Origin: a virus
Direction: 5' to 3' (one strand)
DNA length: 33,874 nucleotides
IMG/VR virus record: IMGVR_UViG_3300028794_000017
Span: 1-33,874 of that record
Shown here: positions 9,705 to 33,874 of the stretch, piece after piece
How the letters are laid out: each line of letters opens with the position of its first letter
Numbering within the stretch: the first letter of the stretch is position 1
Program-made: the position numbers and the translations under genes
The notes under the pieces: model-generated
Told to the model about the DNA's origin: nothing
Database searches by the model: none
The model's input: only the letters and a program-made list of their open reading frames with translations

Positions 9705-10565
9705 TCAGTTGGTTAGTTTGGTTGCGATGGCACGGTATCGGTCCAGCACGTCGCTGGCGAAGACCTGTCGTTGCTGCGGGCCGAACGTGTAGTGCGACAC
9801 CAGCGAGTTGCCGATGATGATGTTCGGGTGGTCGATCTGCTTCGGCTGGTGCACGCTGTGCCAGTTCTCTTCCTCGTCGGGACGAAGAACGCCGGGCTCG
9901 GGAAGCTTCGCGTACATGTCGCCACGTGATGCGAAGTACGACACCGAGAACTGCTGCCCTACGCGCAACGGCATGTCCTGGTACAGGTACACGTCCTGCG
10001 GCTTGCCGGATTCAATCTTGTCCAGAAGCAGGTTGTGAATCTTCACCGCGAAGTCGCCGTTGGCCCACCCCATCGAGTCCATGCAGAACGGCTCACCCAC
10101 GACACCGAACTCCGTGGGGATGATGCCGCACTGCTGGAGGTACCACGACGTGATGGCGTTGTTCCAGCACAGGCCGAACAGCGCAACGGGATCGGGCATC
10201 TCGATGCGGGCGCGAACCAGGTTCTCGATGGCGTTGCTGTGGACGTACACCAAGTCGTCATCGAGCCGGACGTAGATGGTGTTCACGTCGGTCATGTACT
10301 GGTAGAAGTAGCCGGTGTTGCGCTGCTTCGGCGTACGGCGCGGCATGCCGTTGGGACGGTCCTTGGTCTTGATGAACTTGTGCGACTTGGCAAGGTTGTA
10401 GCCGTACCGCAGATCACCCACCTGATCCGGATCGGTGTTCAGGCACAGCCACCACTCATCGATGAGGCCGATCTCGTGATCCCGTCGCATGTATTCGGCC
10501 AGGATGCTGATCGTCTTCTCGCGTCCGTAGGGAGTCCAAGCGACCACCCTTTTGCCGTCGATCAT
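9705..10565 (-). CDS. Glycosyltransferase-like protein (GT-A-like, DDD motif)
   Basis: 286 residues. The frame is open far upstream over the preceding gene, but the ATG at 10565 has GGGGAG before it and overlaps the previous stop as ATGA, so it is the chosen start. A hydrophobic strand ending in RLDDDLVYV (residues about 99-107) looks like the metal-binding DXD element of GT-A transferases. The rest (Trp, Tyr and Asn-rich segments near GLCWNNAITSWYL) suits a carbohydrate-binding fold. It is the third transferase of the cassette and would act in the cytoplasm on sugars from host nucleotide-sugar pools. The exact family and acceptor are unknown. Confidence 0.65.
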   Translation of the reverse strand: MIDGKRVVAWTPYGREKTISILAEYMRRDHEIGLIDEWWLCLNTDPDQVGDLRYGYNLAKSHKFIKTKDRPNGMPRRTPKQRNTGYFYQYMTDVNTIYVRLDDDLVYVHSNAIENLVRARIEMPDPVALFGLCWNNAITSWYLQQCGIIPTEFGVVGEPFCMDSMGWANGDFAVKIHNLLLDKIESGKPQDVYLYQDMPLRVGQQFSVSYFASRGDMYAKLPEPGVLRPDEEENWHSVHQPKQIDHPNIIIGNSLVSHYTFGPQQRQVFASDVLDRYRAIATKLTN

Positions 10566-11278
10566 CGGTTGCTCCCCTTGATTGGATGTTTTGAAAGGAT
10601 GAGTTCGCGTGCCTTGTCGGTCAGGTCGAGACCGGCGTTGATGCTGTCCTGGTGCAACTGACCGGGGTGCATCACGTAGTAGTACGTCGGCTGGGTGACG
10701 ACGCCGTAGTTCGTGAAGCCGTGTTTGAAGACCTCGATCCAGAAGGCCCAGTCTTCCTTGTAGCCGAACGAGCCGGGCAACGACACGTCCAGTGGGTAAC
10801 CGCGAACCGTCGCCCACACATCGCGGGGAATCAGCGCGTAGTTCACCAACGGCGGGTAGACGAGGAAGTCCTCCAACACGACATCCGTGCGGGAAGCCTG
10901 AACCACGTTCTCGCCACCGACCTGTTGCGCGTAGGTGACAACCCAGTCCTTCCCCGTTTGAAGAAGTTGAACGCACCTGCTGATGCAGTCCAACCGGAGG
11001 AAGTCGTCGGCGTTCATCAGGAACACCGCATCGCAACCGTCGTTGAACGCCATACGCACAGCACGGTTCAGTGAGGCGGGCCAGCCGTAGCGAACCTTGT
11101 TACGGGCGAGCTGGTGATACCAGGAAGGCCGGTTCAGCAAGAACTCAAACGTGCCGTCGTCCGAAGCGTCATCGCAGATGTACGTCTTCACTGGATGAAG
11201 TTGCGCACCCAACGTCGTCAGGCAGTTCTCGATGTACGGCAGCACGTTGTACGCGGGGACAGCGACACCGATCTTCAT
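10562..11278 (-). CDS. Family 2 glycosyltransferase
   Basis: 238 residues, starting at the ATG that overlaps the previous stop (ATGA). The sequence opens with the classic GT2 strand VAVPAYN (residues 5-11), followed by CDDASDDGT (35-43) for nucleotide binding and LMNADD (87-92) as the DXD-type metal site. A C-terminal YKEDWAFWIE segment resembles the catalytic base region (ED) of GT2 enzymes. The reaction is inverting transfer of a sugar from an NDP-sugar to an unknown acceptor. It is a stand-alone soluble enzyme without membrane helices. Context points to modification of virion proteins, DNA or host glycans. Confidence 0.88.
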   Translation of the reverse strand: MKIGVAVPAYNVLPYIENCLTTLGAQLHPVKTYICDDASDDGTFEFLLNRPSWYHQLARNKVRYGWPASLNRAVRMAFNDGCDAVFLMNADDFLRLDCISRCVQLLQTGKDWVVTYAQQVGGENVVQASRTDVVLEDFLVYPPLVNYALIPRDVWATVRGYPLDVSLPGSFGYKEDWAFWIEVFKHGFTNYGVVTQPTYYYVMHPGQLHQDSINAGLDLTDKARELILSKHPIKGSNR

Positions 11279-12255
11279 CGCCCACCACCAAGCACACGTT
11301 CCCACTGCGGTGCGAGTGATTCGGCAACGAACTGTGTCGCCTGCACACGAGCACGTTCGCCCATCTCGCGCCGTGCGTCTTCATCTTCTACAAGCAGACG
11401 CATGTACTTGCCCCACTCGTGTTCCTGCTTGACAATGAAGCCCGTCTCGCCGTGACGAACGAAGTCGCGGTACGGACGGATGTCGCTGGCGATGATGGGG
11501 ATACCGAGGAACGCAGCCTCCAGGGCCTTCGTAGCGCCCTTGGCGTGGGTGTAGGGGGACCGGTGGTAGGGCGCAAGCCAAACGTCGAAGTCGATGTACT
11601 TCAGGTACTCCAACGTGCCTGTCACGAAATCGGTCGCCATGAAGTCCGTCTTCAGGATCGGCTTCAGCACTTCACCGGGAACGCCGACCGTGTGCAGTAC
11701 GACGTTCGCCTTGGTGCGATCGAGGAACCGTGCGATCTGTGGTGCCGCCATGCGCAGGCCGGGCATCGACCCCTTGGTGCACGCGTACCCCAACGTGATG
11801 TGCTCGTGCTGCGGACGCTGCCAGTTCAGAACTTCAGCAGGCAATCCGTTCGGGATCATCACCACGTTGGAGTTGTACGCGGACATCTGCTCGGCAAGAA
11901 CATCGCTGCACGCCGTGACGACATCAGCGATCTGGATGTTCTCCATGATGTGTGCCTGTGTGTCGGTGCGATTGTAGAAGGTGAAAGACTCTTCAAACTC
12001 CGCGTCGATGTTGAAGTAGTCGTCATCCACGTCGTACACCAGCCGGTTGTTGCGCTTGGCAAGTTCGGCCCACATCTGCGAAGGGCCGTCCTTGGACACA
12101 CGCTGACCCACGACCGTCGCGTCACGCACCCATGACGGCACGACCATCAGGCTGACTTCGCTGGTGTGATTCAGTTTGGACAACGCCGCCGAAGGCGTGT
12201 GCATCCGATAGAACGCACACCCTCCCTCGTCGGCAGCCCACCAGAACAACTTCAT
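11275..12255 (-). CDS. Family 4-like (GT-B) glycosyltransferase
   Basis: 326 residues, ATGA-coupled to the epimerase gene. The N-terminal Rossmann domain starts MKLFWWAADEGGCAFYRMHTP; a region near LVYDVDDDYFNID (about 70-83) follows, then a typical hinge with VVMIPNGLP (about 127-135). The C-terminal domain has GYACTKGS, then GATKALEAAFLGIPIIAS (about 240-257), the retaining GT4 EX7E-type donor-binding region, and GETGFIV. It would transfer sugar from an NDP donor with retention of configuration. The first Met of the longer open frame lacks a ribosome site, so the coupled ATG is used. Confidence 0.88.
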   Translation of the reverse strand: MKLFWWAADEGGCAFYRMHTPSAALSKLNHTSEVSLMVVPSWVRDATVVGQRVSKDGPSQMWAELAKRNNRLVYDVDDDYFNIDAEFEESFTFYNRTDTQAHIMENIQIADVVTACSDVLAEQMSAYNSNVVMIPNGLPAEVLNWQRPQHEHITLGYACTKGSMPGLRMAAPQIARFLDRTKANVVLHTVGVPGEVLKPILKTDFMATDFVTGTLEYLKYIDFDVWLAPYHRSPYTHAKGATKALEAAFLGIPIIASDIRPYRDFVRHGETGFIVKQEHEWGKYMRLLVEDEDARREMGERARVQATQFVAESLAPQWERVLGGGR

Positions 12256-13247
12256 GCGTCGACACCACGAATGACACGCGGGCGGAAGTCCTTGTGCTGC
12301 CAATCGACAAGCCAGTTCTCGGCGTACCAACGAACCGTCTTGTAGATACCGGCGTCGAGCTGCGTCAGGTCACCGACCGACATGCCGATGTTCTCCAACG
12401 TGCTGGTGTCGGCGGTTACCTGCGCACCGGGGATCTCACCGGGACGCATCGGCAGATGAATCAGGCCGACTTCGTTGCCGCCGTTGAACTCCATCGCGTG
12501 CTTGATGACGAGCTGCGCGACCTCGTTGACGGTGTGGTGTTCAGCCGGACCACACTCGACCGGATCGTCAAGCACGGTGCCGTTCGCTGCGTACTCAAGC
12601 GCCTTCACCAACGCTTGCGCACCATCGCGTACGTGCACCATGTCGGACACCTGGTTGCCGTCGCCGTAGACCTCGATGTCCTGACCGGTCAGCGCACGGC
12701 ACACGAACGCAGGCGTGATCTTCCGGACCTTGGCGGGACCGAACGGCGGGGCGACGGACTGACGTGGGCCGTACGCGTTCACCAGACGGACGACGTTGGC
12801 CTTCGTGCCGCGTTCCTTGTTGAACATCTTCACGAAGCGCTCGATGGTCGTCTTGCTGATCGAGTAACTGTTGTTCATCCAGTGGTTGCCGACACCGATG
12901 TAGACGCCGGGGATGTCGTACTGCGTGATGGACTCCAGGAAGTTAAGTCCACCCTCGATGTTCGTCTTCGTCGCGGGACGTGGGTTCTGGATGGTCTCCT
13001 GCGTACCGAGGCACGCGGCCAGATGGATGATGCCGTCTGTATGCGCGGCCAACTCAGCCATCGCAACTTCATCCCGCACATCACCGAGCATCACAGTCAC
13101 GTGGTCGTATTCGGCGTACTTCGCGCTGATCTCGCGGGGAAGACGCCCCATGTGGTCGAACACCATGACGGAGTGACCACGTTCTACTGCTGTCTCGATG
13201 ACGTGTCCGCCGATGAAACCAGCGCCGCCAGTGAGTCCGATCTTCAT
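12252..13247 (-). CDS. NAD-dependent epimerase/dehydratase-like enzyme (extended SDR)
   Basis: 331 residues, ATG with GGGAGA upstream. The Rossmann fingerprint TGGAGFIGG is at residues 6-14, DVRD at 56-59, and the YxxxK pair is Y128/K132. NAYGPRQ (about 158-164) and the YGDGNQVSDMVHVRDGA segment (about 194-210) are typical of GalE/RmlB-type enzymes. It would convert a host nucleotide-sugar into the donor used by the three transferases encoded downstream. Oddly, the catalytic Ser/Thr normally found before the Tyr cannot be placed: the segment is VYIGVGNHWMNNSY, shortened and Gly-containing. Either chemistry differs or another residue substitutes. It is the first enzyme of the operon. Confidence 0.88.
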   Translation of the reverse strand: MKIGLTGGAGFIGGHVIETAVERGHSVMVFDHMGRLPREISAKYAEYDHVTVMLGDVRDEVAMAELAAHTDGIIHLAACLGTQETIQNPRPATKTNIEGGLNFLESITQYDIPGVYIGVGNHWMNNSYSISKTTIERFVKMFNKERGTKANVVRLVNAYGPRQSVAPPFGPAKVRKITPAFVCRALTGQDIEVYGDGNQVSDMVHVRDGAQALVKALEYAANGTVLDDPVECGPAEHHTVNEVAQLVIKHAMEFNGGNEVGLIHLPMRPGEIPGAQVTADTSTLENIGMSVGDLTQLDAGIYKTVRWYAENWLVDWQHKDFRPRVIRGVDA

Positions 13248-13558: not shown

Positions 13559-13732
13559 ATGACAGGCAGTGGCACGAAAGCCAGAGCAGTACGCGGTGTT
13601 ACCGATGACAAGTGGAAGCGCTTCGGTCAAGCCGCTGAAGCAGCAGGTATCGACAGGTCGAAAGCGTTGCGGGACTTCATCGACTACTTCATCGGTGACG
13701 TCAGTGAACCACTGGAGCGACCGGGCACATGA
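13559..13732 (+). CDS. Ribbon-helix-helix (CopG/Arc-like) DNA-binding protein
   Basis: 57 residues, ATG preceded by GAGG and by an in-frame TGA immediately upstream, so the start is firm. The layout fits a ribbon-helix-helix fold: a short strand (KARAVRGVT, 7-15), helix A (DDKWKRFGQAAEAAG, 16-30), a turn, and helix B beginning RSKALRDFIDYFIG (33-46). Such proteins dimerise, insert the strand pair into the major groove and often repress their own promoter at palindromes. The palindrome at 13515-13530 ends 28 bp upstream of its start, and related motifs lie upstream of two other phage units. It is monocistronic, with a terminator directly after it. Confidence 0.75.
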   Translation: MTGSGTKARAVRGVTDDKWKRFGQAAEAAGIDRSKALRDFIDYFIGDVSEPLERPGT

Positions 13733-15652: not shown

Positions 15653-17164
15653 CTAGACGGGTTTTGAGCGCTTCAGCTTTCTCGGCTTCGTAAGCGGCAC
15701 GGTCGAAGTAGTCGTCGTCTCTAAGTGGTCCTCCTGGGTGGTGACCTCACGCGCCCGCTGTGCGCCACGTACAGCCTTCTTGGGTACACCACCCTTGGAC
15801 AGGGCAGGCTTGGCCACCTTGCGGGCGGGAGAGACCTTCTGAACGGGCGACGCTTCGGGGAAGCCAGCCTTCGCACGGGCCTGGTTGATGCGACCCATCT
15901 GCGCATCGGTGATCTCGCCCATCTTCACCAAGTTGAAAACCTGCTGTGCGGTCATGTTGACGAACCACGACATCGGCTTGGACTGCTTCGACACGCGGAG
16001 GTAGATGACGCCCTTGGTCTTGTCCACAACCTCAACGTCCGCAGGGGGACGGGGAATCTTCCTCACTCCCCTTCTGTGTGGTCGGGGAGTTGAAGGAGTT
16101 GCCTCGTTTACGGTGGTTGCGGAGTTAGGTTCGGTGGGAGTTGAGCCGGGGAGGGACAGAACGAAGTGACCGTCACGTCCACCGATACGGCGAGAGGAAA
16201 CACGGAGGGTCTTACGTGCTGCTTCCAAGGTTCTCTTGCTCATACCTCGTTCGGTGGCAAGCTGCTCGATCTCCTTGGTGGGACGTTCACCGGAAGACAA
16301 CTCTTCGACCAGAAGACGGATACCTTCATCGACCTTGCTGGACCGGCCTTCGTTGACGGCTGACTTCGGGGAACCGATGTCGAAAGCCAGTACGTGATCC
16401 TTCTTGATGTCCTCGTTCTCCTGTCCCCACTCGATGACACCGATGCGTTCGTTCCCTTCCGCTCCAACAGTGCGGTAGGTGAACGAAGCAGGCTTGGTTC
16501 CGATGTTGTACTTGTACGTAGTGACAACGAACGACGTCTCTTCGTCGGGCTCTTCCGGGTTACGGCCCAACAGGAACGCGATACGGGCGAAGGCGTCGAT
16601 GCCAACGGAACCAACACCACGGAACATGGCGGACAAGTCAGTCTTCTGGTTCAGGTGACGCATCATCAGCATCGTGGCACCGATGTCCTGGATGAGTGTG
16701 AAGAAGGGTTGCAACACCTTCCGAACCTTGAACGTCGAAGCCAACTCGTCGGCAGCGTTGAAGATGTTCTCGATCGGGTCAACGACGATGTACCGAACCT
16801 TCTTCTTCCGGCAGTAGTCCGCCAGCTTGTCGAAGTCCGTCTTCCCGCTGAAGTCACGGATGATAGTCAGTCGGCTGTTGTCCCCTCCCGCACACTCAAA
16901 CCGCTTGCGGATGGACTGCTCGGATTCTTCGGAGGTAATCCAAAGAACGTTCCGGCAAGCAAGCCTCTTCTTCTGTACTCCCTTCGCTCCCGGCATACGC
17001 CGTCCCGTGGTGGCCCTAGCCAACAAGTCACGGGCAACGGTGCTCTTACCGACATCAGGCATGCCCTGGACGATGACCATCTCCCCCTTGGGAAGACGAT
17101 GGCCCCATGGTCCTGTGGGCTCGACGTAGTCCACGTCCCCACCCTTCGCTTCTAGGATTTCCAC
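15653..17164 (-). CDS. RecA/RepA-like AAA ATPase with winged helix (replication helicase-like)
   Basis: 503 residues. Walker A is GMPDVGKST (34-42), Walker B is RYIVVD (124-129), and a sensor-like MRH is at 168-170. The fold matches AAA_25/RepA-type ATPases that act as helicases or helicase loaders in phage replication. Residues about 293-337 form a winged helix (PTKEIEQLATERGMSKRTLEAARK) ending in a VLSLP strand, as in many actinophage members. A Pro/Thr linker (340-370) then leads to a basic extension of about 130 residues. The linker codons contain one copy of an inverted 42-bp repeat whose partner lies upstream of the gene. It heads the minus-strand operon and is the only recognisable replication enzyme here. 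Confidence 0.88.
   Translation of the reverse strand: MEILEAKGGDVDYVEPTGPWGHRLPKGEMVIVQGMPDVGKSTVARDLLARATTGRRMPGAKGVQKKRLACRNVLWITSEESEQSIRKRFECAGGDNSRLTIIRDFSGKTDFDKLADYCRKKKVRYIVVDPIENIFNAADELASTFKVRKVLQPFFTLIQDIGATMLMMRHLNQKTDLSAMFRGVGSVGIDAFARIAFLLGRNPEEPDEETSFVVTTYKYNIGTKPASFTYRTVGAEGNERIGVIEWGQENEDIKKDHVLAFDIGSPKSAVNEGRSSKVDEGIRLLVEELSSGERPTKEIEQLATERGMSKRTLEAARKTLRVSSRRIGGRDGHFVLSLPGSTPTEPNSATTVNEATPSTPRPHRRGVRKIPRPPADVEVVDKTKGVIYLRVSKQSKPMSWFVNMTAQQVFNLVKMGEITDAQMGRINQARAKAGFPEASPVQKVSPARKVAKPALSKGGVPKKAVRGAQRAREVTTQEDHLETTTTSTVPLTKPRKLKRSKPV
16085..16126 (+). repeat. 42-bp element, copy B (inside the ATPase gene)
   Basis: It begins GGGAGTTGAAGGAGTTGCC (16085-16103) and ends GGTTGCGGAGTT (16115-16126). 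Copy A (17228-17269) has the same 19-mer and the same spacing on the opposite strand, with about 37 of 42 positions identical. It falls in the codons for the low-complexity linker (residues about 347-360). A fourth GGAGTT hexamer follows at 16137. Candidate binding site array for a replication or regulatory protein. Confidence 0.7.
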
Positions 17165-17227
17165 TGACGGCTCCCTTACAAGGTGCCTTGCTAGCTGTGA
17201 CGAAGGTCAACTTACCCCAAGTCTGCA

Positions 17228-17269
17228 AACTCCGCAACAACCGTCAAGTTGGCAACTCCTTCAACTCCC
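17228..17269 (-). repeat. 42-bp element, copy A (upstream of the ATPase gene)
   Basis: Read on the minus strand it starts GGGAGTTGAAGGAGTTGCC and ends TTGTTGCGGAGTT. It is inverted relative to copy B, about 1.1 kb away, and lies 64-105 bp upstream of the ATPase start codon. Three AACTCC hexamers (17228, 17254, 17263) and one GGAGTT (17289) cluster here, as iteron-like or operator-like sites would. Confidence 0.7.
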
Positions 17270-17311
17270 TGGCTACACACGAACTGCGGGAGTTAGAAGC
17301 TGCGGACATGA

Positions 17312-17370
17312 AGAAGCCCCGTGGTTGTCACAGCTAGGCGGCTTGGCACCTTCGCATCCACGGGGCTTCT
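17312..17370 (+). other. Long hairpin with embedded mini-ORF in the divergent region
   Basis: A perfect 13-bp stem, AGAAGCCCCGTGG (17312-17324) and CCACGGGGCTTCT (17358-17370), encloses a 33-base loop. The 256-bp gap 17165-17421 otherwise holds copy A of the 42-bp element and presumably promoters for both directions. On the plus strand an ATG at 17308 opens a 9-codon frame (MKKPRGCHS) that runs through the left arm and stops in the loop. It may be a terminator, an attenuator or a small RNA; no strong ribosome site supports the mini-ORF. Confidence 0.5.
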
Positions 17371-17421
17371 ACGCTGGAGGGTAGAGGTAGGTCTCCAAGG
17401 TCACAAGTTGGGAGGTCAGTC

Positions 17422-17607
17422 GTGGTCAGCACACGCGGTGGGAAGTTTGGCTATGTTGCACGGTCGCGTCATGATGCGTACAGGGAACTTCGGGCCAAGG
17501 GCAACAGCAAGTCCAAGTCCGCAGCCATCGCCAACGAGGGGAGAACGTTCGCGGGACGTAGCTCGATGGCACGCAAGGCAGCTCGCACCCGCAGGCACCG
17601 CCGGTAG
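17422..17607 (+). CDS. Small basic protein (Ku/DUF7218-like small protein)
   Basis: 61 residues from GTG with GGAGG 8 bases upstream. It is extremely Arg/Lys-rich, with a central motif Y.EL..KG.SKSKSAAIANEG (about 19-40) like a common small protein of actinobacteria and their phages. It is probably nucleic-acid binding, judging from charge and size. It is the first gene of the plus-strand block that diverges from the replication ATPase. The family assignment is by resemblance from memory and needs a profile search. Confidence 0.6.
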   Translation: MVSTRGGKFGYVARSRHDAYRELRAKGNSKSKSAAIANEGRTFAGRSSMARKAARTRRHRR

Positions 17608-17796: not shown

Positions 17797-17811
17797 ACCG
17801 ACGAACGATGC

Positions 17812-17841
17812 AAGGGGTGTCCACGAACACGGACACCCCTT
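17812..17841 (+). terminator. Terminator after the 50-residue membrane protein gene
   Basis: A perfect 11-bp inverted repeat, AAGGGGTGTCC (17812-17822) and GGACACCCCTT (17831-17841), with an 8-base loop, lies 15 bp after the stop codon. There is no extended U-run. Confidence 0.8.
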
Positions 17842-18149
17842 CGTCATGTCTGGACTTCCTACATTCCATGTATCCATGTGTTCTCGTTACGTACGTGATG
17901 AACGTGTTGCTTCGTTGTTCTCATGACTTCGTCGACTTCTTCGACTTACATACTGTTGGACTGTTTGACTTACCTGGCGTTTTAGCGTCCGTAGATGCAT
18001 GCGATTTGGCAACGGTAGGGACGCACGTACGTCACGAGACCGTTCGTGGGAACATCTCGTCACGGGCTCTCGTGAGCCGATGATGTAGCGTGTGCATACG
18101 CCGGGGCAAGAATGACTTCGGCACCCCTAAGAAACAGGGAGCTAGGCAC
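17842..18149. promoter_or_regulatory. 308-bp AT-richer intergenic region with short repeats
   Basis: I find no convincing gene here. It contains a 9-bp tandem array of GACTT units (starting 17925, 17934, 17943) with another at 17967. ACGTACGT occurs twice (17889 and 18025). An inverted repeat TCACGAGA/TCTCGTGA (18032-18039 and 18068-18075) has an additional TCTCGT at 18055. A TTGACT at 17965 could be a -35, but no good -10 sits at the right distance. The region probably holds the promoter and operator sites of the 415-residue protein gene. Confidence 0.45.
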
Positions 18150-19397
18150 ATGCGATTCATCCAGGCAGTTGCAAGCGCGGATCAGGTGGACCAGGACGAC
18201 GCTTCCGTCTTCCACCTGAACTTGGACCATGTACTCCGATTCAGCATCGACCACTTCGACATCAGGGCCGATGTCGCGGACGAGGACCAGCGGTACGTCA
18301 TCGAGATGCAGACGGCGGAAGAAGCTCCCACCGAAGCGATGACGATGGACGAGCTGAAGATCGAGATGAACCGCTACAAGTATTTCGCCCCGATCACCTT
18401 CGACAACCCGTCAGTAGCGCTCGCCTGGCTGCTGAAGTCGAAGGACGCGCACGGTCCGGTCACGTGGTTCGGTGAGCACTACGAAGCGTTGCCATCCCAC
18501 CGTCACTACTCCATCGAGGTACCGCTGTGGAAGGCGGGCGACTACCTCTTCACGGTGCAACTGAAGTACGGCGTCGTGGACAGTGACAACAACTGGCACG
18601 AGCGTGGCGCGGACGAGCAGGAGCACGAGCCGCTGACGGACGTGAAGTTCCACACCCGCAGCATCTTCATCCGTGGCAACGCTGATGAACTTGGTGAAGT
18701 CCAGAAGCGGGCAATGCGTGAACTGAAGGTGCTGGCGCAGCAGTGGGCGGATGAGGTTCAGGAACCGGTCAACGGCGGGTTGGTGTCCTTCACGTACACG
18801 GAGGACGAGAAGCAGCTTGGCGGTATGAGGTTCGGCGACATGCCGATGGTGCAAGTCAAGCCGTATCTGAAGTCGCGGCTTGAAATCAGCAACGGCACCA
18901 CACAGGACAGCACCGTGTATCGCGGTGCTGCGAGCGTGATGGACGTCCGCGTCACCGGCGATTCCGTTCCGCACATCAGAGAGGATCACCCGTTGAAGTT
19001 GGAAGTTGCATGGAAAGACGGTCAACTGGTCGACGCGATGTCGGTCGTCAACGATCCGGCGCTGAAGGATGTGCTGCTGCAACTCACACCCGAACAACTG
19101 GCAGACACCATCGTCGGAATGTTGAAGGCAGAGCAGGATGCGCAGGGGCCAAGCAACGACCTGGAGCGCGCGATGCAGGTGCCGGTGAGCGAAGACGAGA
19201 TCGGCCAGGACGAGTACGACCACGTTCAGAAGATCCTTGGCCGCAACGGGGTCACCAAGAACATCGTGCTGTCGAAGGCCGACGCGTTGACGTTCCTGAA
19301 AGTCATGCAGCGCGATGGACTGCCGGATGCCCTGGAGTTCGCACAGGACACCGTCAAGCCGGACGAGGATGAAGACGGCGTGACCGCGAAGGTCTAA
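18150..19397 (+). CDS. Hypothetical protein of 415 residues
   Basis: The ATG at 18150 has GGGAGC upstream; the frame is open 20 codons further up without a ribosome site. The protein is strongly acidic throughout, with alternating strand-like and helical stretches. It has no membrane segment, Walker motif or metal cluster. Residues about 125-210 contain several His/Trp (WFGEHYEALPSHRHYS). It is flanked by regulatory-looking DNA and a terminator, so it is a separate, possibly early transcript. The long acidic composition would suit a DNA-mimic or a protein binding basic partners, but I do not recognise a family. Confidence 0.7.
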   Translation: MRFIQAVASADQVDQDDASVFHLNLDHVLRFSIDHFDIRADVADEDQRYVIEMQTAEEAPTEAMTMDELKIEMNRYKYFAPITFDNPSVALAWLLKSKDAHGPVTWFGEHYEALPSHRHYSIEVPLWKAGDYLFTVQLKYGVVDSDNNWHERGADEQEHEPLTDVKFHTRSIFIRGNADELGEVQKRAMRELKVLAQQWADEVQEPVNGGLVSFTYTEDEKQLGGMRFGDMPMVQVKPYLKSRLEISNGTTQDSTVYRGAASVMDVRVTGDSVPHIREDHPLKLEVAWKDGQLVDAMSVVNDPALKDVLLQLTPEQLADTIVGMLKAEQDAQGPSNDLERAMQVPVSEDEIGQDEYDHVQKILGRNGVTKNIVLSKADALTFLKVMQRDGLPDALEFAQDTVKPDEDEDGVTAKV

Positions 19398-19510: not shown

Positions 19511-19981
19511 GTGACTACGACGACGAGCTTTAACAGCGGGTTGGTAACCGCTGCCATCCAGCAGGCCGCTGCGAGTGGCATGACGATCCAGATCAGCGAG
19601 ACGCAGGACGGCAAAACCGCCCTGACCCTTACCCCTGTCGGAGTGGAGGCTTCTAAGCCGTCTACGGGCCGTACAGCGGTCCGCAAGGTGACACGGCGGG
19701 GACTGGTCAAGGACAAGAACCGGGTAACGCGGGATCGGCGGCCGAACGAACTCACCGGACGGCAGTTGGAGATCAACGACTACATCAAGGCGAACCCCGG
19801 CGAGGATATCGACCAGATCACTGAAGGCAGCGGTGTCCCACGCGGAACCGTGCAGACGTACCTGCCGGTGTTGCTGCGGGCGATGCTCGTGCGGATGGAT
19901 GAGAACTTCCGCTACCACCCGGTCATCAAGCCGGTGAAGCAGCGAGGCATGGCCAAGCGAGTGAAGAAGCGGAGTATGTAG
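19511..19981 (+). CDS. Winged-helix DNA-binding protein
   Basis: 156 residues from the GTG at 19511, chosen because AAGGGATGAGG lies 8 bases upstream; the ATG at 19457 of the longer frame has no ribosome site. The N-terminal half is Thr/Ser-rich and then very basic (about 50-80). Residues about 80-135 form a winged helix: ELTGRQLEINDYIKANPGE is the first helix, then DIDQITEGSGVPRGTVQTYL is the recognition unit, followed by a wing. The C-terminus is basic (KQRGMAKRVKKRS). It is probably a transcription or replication regulator acting on phage DNA; the target is unknown. Confidence 0.75.
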   Translation: MTTTTSFNSGLVTAAIQQAAASGMTIQISETQDGKTALTLTPVGVEASKPSTGRTAVRKVTRRGLVKDKNRVTRDRRPNELTGRQLEINDYIKANPGEDIDQITEGSGVPRGTVQTYLPVLLRAMLVRMDENFRYHPVIKPVKQRGMAKRVKKRSM

Positions 19982-21133: not shown

Positions 21134-21574
21134 ATGTTGGTTCTGGCACGGCGTGTGGTCGACGAGGTCATCAGGCACGCGAGGGAAGAACACCCCTTGG
21201 AGGCGTGCGGCATCATCGCGGGCAAAATCCAGCCGGTACGTGTTGTGCGGATGGAGAACGACGAAGAGTCCGACACGCGGTTCACCTTCAACGGGCCGGA
21301 GCAGCTACGGGTGTGGAAGGACGTGGAGATTCGCGGGGAAAGAATCCACGTCGTCTATCACTCGCACACAGGGCGGGACGCATACCCCAGTGACATGGAC
21401 CGGCGTTACCTGTGGATGGCGGGAATGGAAGTCATCCACCTGATCGCGGGAACAAACGATCCCCTGACAACAGAGTTCCGCGCATACAGGTTCCTCCCCG
21501 ACATGGATACACAAGGACGATGCACGGTGGAAGAGGTTGAACTTCGCATCGATCAGGAAGCACTAGCGGCGTAG
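21134..21574 (+). CDS. JAMM/MPN-type zinc metalloprotease
   Basis: 146 residues with a strong GGAGG ribosome site. All JAMM residues are present: Glu23 in HPLEACG, then His76-x-His78, Ser86 and Asp89 in YHSHTGRDAYPSDMD, the exact HxHx7SxxD pattern. Such enzymes cleave isopeptide or peptide bonds; in lambda-type tail protein K a JAMM domain is fused to NlpC/P60, whereas here it stands alone. It begins the large virion operon just before terminase, under its own putative operator. Possible roles are processing of a virion protein, cleavage of host or defence conjugates, or murein peptide cleavage. The substrate cannot be told from sequence. Confidence 0.85.
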   Translation: MLVLARRVVDEVIRHAREEHPLEACGIIAGKIQPVRVVRMENDEESDTRFTFNGPEQLRVWKDVEIRGERIHVVYHSHTGRDAYPSDMDRRYLWMAGMEVIHLIAGTNDPLTTEFRAYRFLPDMDTQGRCTVEEVELRIDQEALAA

Positions 21575-33519: not shown

Positions 33520-33874
33520 ATGACGCTTGCATTGCACCCCAACAACGAGATGGTCGCCGTGGCGTGGATCAAAGCCATGCTGGACATCACTTCAGTAGCT
33601 ACAACGCTGCCGGACAAAGAGTCATGGGGCGAAGACGGCTTCGTCCAGGTGTCCAACGTCGGCGGCGAGAGCAACATCTACGTCCCCATGCGGGAACCGA
33701 TCCTGTCCATCGACTGCTGGGGCTGGTCAGCCAACAGCGCCAAGCCAGCGTGGAACCAGGCGAACAATCTTGCGGAAGCAATCCGTATGGCGTCCTTCGA
33801 CTACGACAACGCTGGACGCCTGCTTTCACTGCCTGGAAGTTATCCAGACGCACGAGTGAAGTCGGTGTACCTGA
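33520..33874 (+). CDS. Tail terminator-like / tail completion protein, N-terminal part
   Basis: The ATG at 33520 is one base after the previous stop, with AGGAG upstream at 33507-33511. The reading frame runs off the right edge and continues at base 1 of the window, ending at 260, giving 148 residues once the duplicated 168 bases are collapsed. The product begins with a helix (EMVAVAWIKAMLD) and then mixed strands, as in tail terminator proteins of the lambda gpU type. Assignment is mainly positional: after the gp10-like protein and before the major tail protein. Confidence 0.6.
   Translation, partial: MTLALHPNNEMVAVAWIKAMLDITSVATTLPDKESWGEDGFVQVSNVGGESNIYVPMREPILSIDCWGWSANSAKPAWNQANNLAEAIRMASFDYDNAGRLLSLPGSYPDARVKSVYL
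33707..33874. repeat. Terminal overlap, right copy
   Basis: Direct copy of bases 1-168 with a single mismatch at 33748. It lies within the tail terminator-like gene that begins at 33520. Joining 33706 to base 1 restores an uninterrupted reading frame ending at 260. Confidence 0.9.

Follow-up and report, generated by a model that had tools for sequence, protein, structure and literature searches.

Why does a phage carry two inverted copies of one short element at its replication ATPase gene, one within the coding sequence and the other upstream of it? The window, meaning the whole stretch of 33,874 nucleotides analysed, has the appearance of a complete genome, circular or permuted, of approximately 33.7 kb, its ends being joined by a 168-bp direct repeat found by self-BLAST (1-168 and 33707-33874, 99% identical). 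It is the genome of an actinobacterial phage whose structural genes (terminase, portal, scaffold, capsid and tape measure) form a siphovirus-type block and whose terminase shares approximately 40% identity with its counterparts in Streptomyces and Microbacterium phages. To our knowledge, the origins of most actinobacterial phages are unmapped. No DNA-level relative turned up in the phage DNA collections searched, viral and genome contigs scanned with single proteins (the ATPase, the portal and p415) yielded no relative, and a search of the window for tRNA and Rfam families found none. The lack of any match to the ATPase in 50 TerL-related phage records, some of them fragments, suggests that replication modules may be exchanged between TerL-related phages.

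Several other genes caught our attention. A JAB-domain protein (21134-21574, Pfam Prok-JAB E = 1e-22), weakly desampylase-like, adjoins the terminase genes, and a leftward gene block at 9705-13247 includes an NAD-dependent sugar epimerase/dehydratase (12252-13247) whose neighbours, judged by eye, appear to be sugar-transfer genes. A small basic DUF7218 protein (17422-17607) shares 61% identity over 49 aa with Pas64 of Actinoplanes phage phiAsp2, and many related phages encode it close to their terminase (23 loci).

The inverted repeat and the ATPase gene

The gene at 15653..17164 (minus strand) encodes a hexameric-helicase-type replication ATPase of 503 aa (Pfam AAA_25 E = 4e-19). Residues 1-340 comprise a RecA-like core, for which the AlphaFold model matches RadA, DnaB and RSF1010 RepA (1nlf), with a winged helix after it; a disordered linker (341-395) and a C-terminal extension to residue 503 follow. 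A total of 163 residues thus lie beyond position 340, and the C-terminal extension is not present in the homologs compared.

The earlier note had described a 42-bp inverted element with an identical 19-mer at 16085-16126 (plus) and 17228-17269 (minus). The element is present, and the 19-mer GGCAACTCCTTCAACTCCC is indeed identical in both copies, although its true extent is greater: positions 16075-16126 (plus) and 17228-17279 (minus) form an inverted repeat of 52 nt, ungapped and 85% identical, which at E = 2e-9 is the top internal self-BLAST match except for the 168-bp terminal repeat. Gapped alignment extends it to about 90 nt, giving copy A (plus strand, about 16058-16144) and copy B (minus strand, about 17207-17300). 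Conservation between the copies peaks at a tandem AACTCC-TTC-AACTCC core, and the eight substitutions that separate them spare all three aligned AACTCC hexamers.

GGAGTT (AACTCC on the other strand) occurs four times in each region, as had been noted: at 16086, 16095, 16121 and 16137 in copy A, all on the plus strand, and at 17228, 17254 and 17263 (minus) and 17289 (plus, inverted) in copy B. Such clustering, with four hexamers inside 70 nt, is by itself only mildly unusual, three hexamers in the genome reaching this density (AACTCC and two that represent a GAC triplet run) and shuffled genomes yielding 0.2-0.3 such hexamers each. It is the 52-nt repeat, rather than the hexamer clustering, that goes beyond chance. 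When viral contigs were searched for the pattern AACTCC-N20-AACTCC-N3-AACTCC, all matches were attributable to chance or low complexity.

The start of copy A coincides with the end of the conserved helicase/winged-helix core (residue 341), and the first AACTCC of the copy falls 2-3 nt past codon 340. The core of copy A overlaps linker codons 347-364 and its extended form codons 341-369, a segment largely disordered according to the structure model; the core of copy B lies 64-115 nt upstream of the start of the same gene, an arrangement that the earlier note had read correctly. The synonymous codons of about 341-369 are the most atypical of 8,885 29-codon windows in the phage, and they also stand out against other windows rich in S/T/P/A/N/E, which disfavours an ordinary Thr-Pro coding repeat as an account of the linker. 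The C-terminal extension behind copy A has a normal coding character. Taken together, the atypical linker codons and the normal extension therefore indicate, as far as the sequence can tell, that the DNA of copy A is either under a constraint besides coding or a recent capture from non-coding DNA.

The 5' control region of the ATPase gene (17165..17421), which includes copy B, is divergent since the leftward block begins at 17164 with the ATPase and the rightward genes lie past 17421. This region also contains an inverted repeat around copy B (17180-17202 and 17327-17352, AAGGTGCC..CTAGCTGTGAC) and a hairpin with a 13-bp stem (17312-17370, z = -3.05 for the minus strand as DNA). The right arm of the repeat is situated in the loop of the hairpin and the left arm beside the ATPase ribosome-binding site, and together they could possibly form an RNA leader switch or pseudoknot.

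Repeat arrays behind homologous helicase genes

A comparison with 58 homologous helicase loci, of approximately 10 kb each and 20-30% identical in protein, provided the decisive context for copy A. These homologs come from phage, plasmid and bacterial DNA and are mostly primase-polymerase/helicase fusions, the majority ending within a few dozen residues of position 340 and the Streptomyces types within about 20. A locus was scored as array-bearing if a 9-bp repeat had more copies in the first ~250 nt past the stop codon than in any other locus segment. By this test 18 of the 58 carry an array that starts at the helicase stop codon or shortly beyond it, including many from Streptomyces together with Phaeobacter, a Firmicute and a Planctomycete; the remaining 40, mainly from other lineages, fail the strict test. 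Because some of the 18 are near-duplicates (for example L111 and L156), independent lineages are fewer, and the nine distinct units (GACGAGATT, GACGGGATT, CACACATGG, TTGGCAATG, GAAGGTGAG, TGAGACGAA, TTATCAATA, TGGCATTCT and GTCTAAGTG) provide a better measure. The arrays hold 5-10 copies of a ~9-bp unit, commonly at 9-bp spacing, the first copy lying -2 to +31 nt from the stop codon in the tabulated loci, and in most a direct block is followed by an inverted block, with few or no copies elsewhere.

Streptomyces-type loci with an array after the helicase gene are L111, L118, L123, L127, L129, L132, L133, L137, L156, L159-L164 and L166. Iteron-like arrays of lineage-specific 9-bp units also lie right after the AAA_25 primase/helicase genes of L142, L143 and L153. 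Judged by their layout, the arrays at all of these loci are probably replication origins, and we know of no published description of replicons built in this way. The 3' layout is that expected of an iteron origin whose sequence would co-evolve with its initiator. In some homologs (L139, L141, L144 and L152, with L147 borderline) such repeats lie inside a translated C-terminal tail, and one of these, L139 from Micromonospora sp. HK10, is the best-scoring homolog of all. The tail of the Chloroflexi homolog L141 (4954-5290) is a translated tandem repeat (PASPGQSTGPNRSSAGI).

Copy A occupies the place equivalent to these arrays, with homologous helicase and winged-helix domains before it, repeats no more than about 30 nt from the core end in both cases, and 9-bp phased units common to both. 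There are also clear differences. The repeat sequences are unrelated; both blocks lie past the stop codon in the homologs, whereas the inverted partner of copy A is found across the core gene, upstream and 1.1 kb away; and the homologs have 5-10 clean copies where A and B have four degenerate ones each. None of the homologs has an array at the site of copy B, and among the 14 array-bearing homologs tabulated none has one upstream of the helicase gene. Counted in the same way as the homologs, the phage is not repeat-rich over the 280 nt next to the core end (p 0.2-0.7), and an iteron profile of the Streptomyces type scanned on the phage picked out neither A nor B. Aligned to copy B, the blocks of L118 ranked 3 and 5 of 563, which is only suggestive. 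In the absence of a clear match from either the profile scan or this alignment, we rejected sequence homology between the phage repeats and the iterons of the Streptomyces-type loci. Repeat sequence differs among the homologs as well, and a shared sequence is no strict requirement.

Phasing and the low-GC neighbourhood

The earlier note had treated the GGAGTT hexamer as the repeat unit, which it is not: the hexamer belongs to a degenerate ~9-bp unit resembling GTTGAAGGA/GTTGCCAAC. On the minus strand of copy B, TTG recurs at roughly 0, 9, 17, 27, 36, 44 and 54, and when all 64 trinucleotides are considered this is the genome's longest chain spaced at 8-10 bp (TTG x7 on the minus strand, CAA on the plus, 17208-17264). 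Copy A holds one of the two five-member chains. Chains of seven were reached in none of 120 shuffles (two null models, 60 trials each). However, control phage DNA (1.2 Mb) contains about one chain of at least six members per 58 kb, mostly of GC-rich trinucleotides, and for this reason the chains are supporting rather than decisive evidence.

The second-longest chain, ACT x6 (plus strand, 17926-17970), marks a third array, C (17925..17971, minus strand), made up of AGTCGAAGA-like units. Array C lies within 17835-17984, the 150 nt with the lowest GC content in the genome, and 17.8-18.0 kb is the genome minimum for all windows of 100-250 nt; the array is possibly an unwinding region, or a promoter or operator. 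The lowest-GC segment, taken as 17797-18149, shows GACTT units spaced by 9 bp, together with an inverted repeat of 16 nt (TCTCGTTACGTACGTG/CACGTACGTCACGAGA). Copies A and B themselves have GC contents of 59% and 51-52%, neither is directly flanked by an AT-rich stretch, and the GC minimum is approximately 560 nt away from copy B. Strand asymmetry, which the earlier note had named as a check, yields minima close by, at 17992 for purine skew and at 18515 for detrended GC skew, although divergent transcription alone could produce the skew. With the lowest GC, a third phased array and the skew minima falling together, the 17.8-18.0 kb neighbourhood is a plausible replication start point.

Proposed iteron arrays of the phage initiator, and other readings

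The earlier suggestion of a candidate origin or control array is strengthened by the homolog arrays at the equivalent place, the ~9-bp phasing and the codon atypia. On balance, we consider it somewhat probable that A and B serve as iteron arrays for a replication initiator encoded by the phage itself, with A at the origin site of the family and B either the split second half of the origin or an autoregulatory operator. What we observe is the repeat with its phasing and its placement at the core, the unusual codons and the arrays of the homologs, and from these we infer binding to the arrays, origin activity and autoregulation. For the initiator, the AAA_25/winged-helix ATPase is the most likely candidate, or else a partner of it. 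In this model, copy A would be the origin array typical of the family, adjoining the helicase core on its 3' side and crossed by the reading frame in such a way that it would also serve as a flexible linker to the C-terminal extension. Initiator molecules would use their winged helix to bind the phased repeats and would assemble the helicase on the DNA, and an AT-rich stretch nearby, for which 17835-17984 with array C is a candidate, would then be opened. Initiator bound at copy B, in the promoter/5' region, could pair with copy A by looping and limit expression of its own gene. Classical iteron-plasmid initiators often repress their own promoters through iteron-related sites.

A more specific form of this proposal, offered tentatively and rather unlikely as it stands, is a split origin in which inverted half-arrays enclose the gene for the initiator core, one half being both binding site and linker, and the loop between them would couple origin assembly to the shut-off of initiator synthesis. 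More broadly, the homologs from Streptomyces, Phaeobacter, a Firmicute and a Planctomycete point to a simple rule whereby the primase/AAA_25 helicase genes of one clade carry, at the 3' end, a rapidly evolving ~9-bp iteron array of their own. Such a rule would make origins locatable from sequence alone and initiator-iteron pairs testable.

Alternatively, A and B may be an operator pair with no replication role, a phage transcription regulator binding B at the ATPase promoter and A within the gene and looping the DNA as in the lac and gal operons. Weak HTH and RHH matches among the phage proteins offer possible regulators, either an Arc/VapB-like protein of 57 aa (13559-13732) or an HTH-like protein of 156 aa (19511-19981). 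Copy B is well placed for this within the divergent control region, where it overlaps a promoter-like pair read by eye (17221..17248, minus strand; TTGACG at 17248-17243, N16, CAGACT), but a consensus promoter scan did not recover this pair and found nothing else. Operator function also leaves unexplained why A starts exactly at the core end, the site of the homolog arrays, and we regard it as unlikely. Less likely again is a recent inverted duplication without function, in which a piece of linker DNA was copied to the intergenic region, or intergenic DNA to the linker, and drift is now under way. Two-copy duplications do occur, 85% identity with some indels would suit one, and recently captured non-coding DNA would also give strongly atypical codons; against this, the eight substitutions all fall outside the three intact hexamers, the genome is compact, and the position coincides with that of the homolog iteron arrays.

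Control at the RNA level is very improbable. The ATPase mRNA leader (the complement of B) would pair with the coding part in A over 1.1 kb, limiting translation or guiding RNase III, and the predicted duplex of -99 kcal/mol does exceed the -49 +/- 8 of random segment pairs at equal spacing; however, any inverted repeat would be expected to form such a duplex, and the arrays of the homologs are downstream only. Equally doubtful are single-strand initiation signals for a phage primase, one per strand, resembling ssiA/ssiB of RSF1010 (PMC4434180), the RepA of which AAA_25 helicases resemble: each copy can fold a CTTC.ACTCCC/GGGAGT.GAAG hairpin, but, where a system of the RSF1010 type would call for a stable hairpin on each strand, these are no more stable than shuffles (z -0.56 and -1.33), leading us to reject the hairpin reading, and no primase was identified among the phage proteins, p415 having no family match and a structure model with pLDDT 35.

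The proposed iteron arrays also find partial counterparts in known replicons. The primase/helicase/winged-helix replicon pRN1 has an origin stem-loop (~100 bp) 3' of its rep gene orf904, and outside it (PMC4234260), and the same paper covers a phage case of an origin 3' of the rep gene. In pRN1, as in the phage analysed here, a cis inverted-repeat element comes right after the core of a helicase with a winged helix, but the helicase of pRN1 is of the SF3 type, whereas the phage analysed has a RecA-fold AAA_25 helicase, short phased repeats and a translated array. The theta plasmid pWTY27 of Streptomyces uses repAB and an iteron, the gene pair including a predicted primase-polymerase, and its RepA footprints an inverted repeat (PMC3583192); its short 7-8-bp repeats, direct and inverted, occupy a non-coding region of their own, with no half inside the rep gene. 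In RepA mycobacteriophages the presumed location of the origin is in repA or next to it (PMC7157519).

Bacillus phage SPP1 comes closer in layout, with oriL inside gene 38 and oriR intergenic (PMC6316719), so that in both phages one of two like arrays is within the initiator gene. The SPP1 origins, however, are approximately 13 kb apart, each has an AT-rich unwinding element that A and B lack, and the partner of gp38 is gp40, a separate helicase of the DnaB family. Lambda carries its iterons inside gene O (PMC6022878), whose product has domains joined by a flexible linker; it has four 18-bp iterons and an adjacent AT-rich region, and no upstream inverted copy is described. Copy A would thus be an array read as protein, comparable to those of lambda O and SPP1 gene 38 but belonging to an unrelated initiator. 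Both phage copies, although degenerate, consist of phased short repeats next to the putative initiator gene, as in iteron-type origins.
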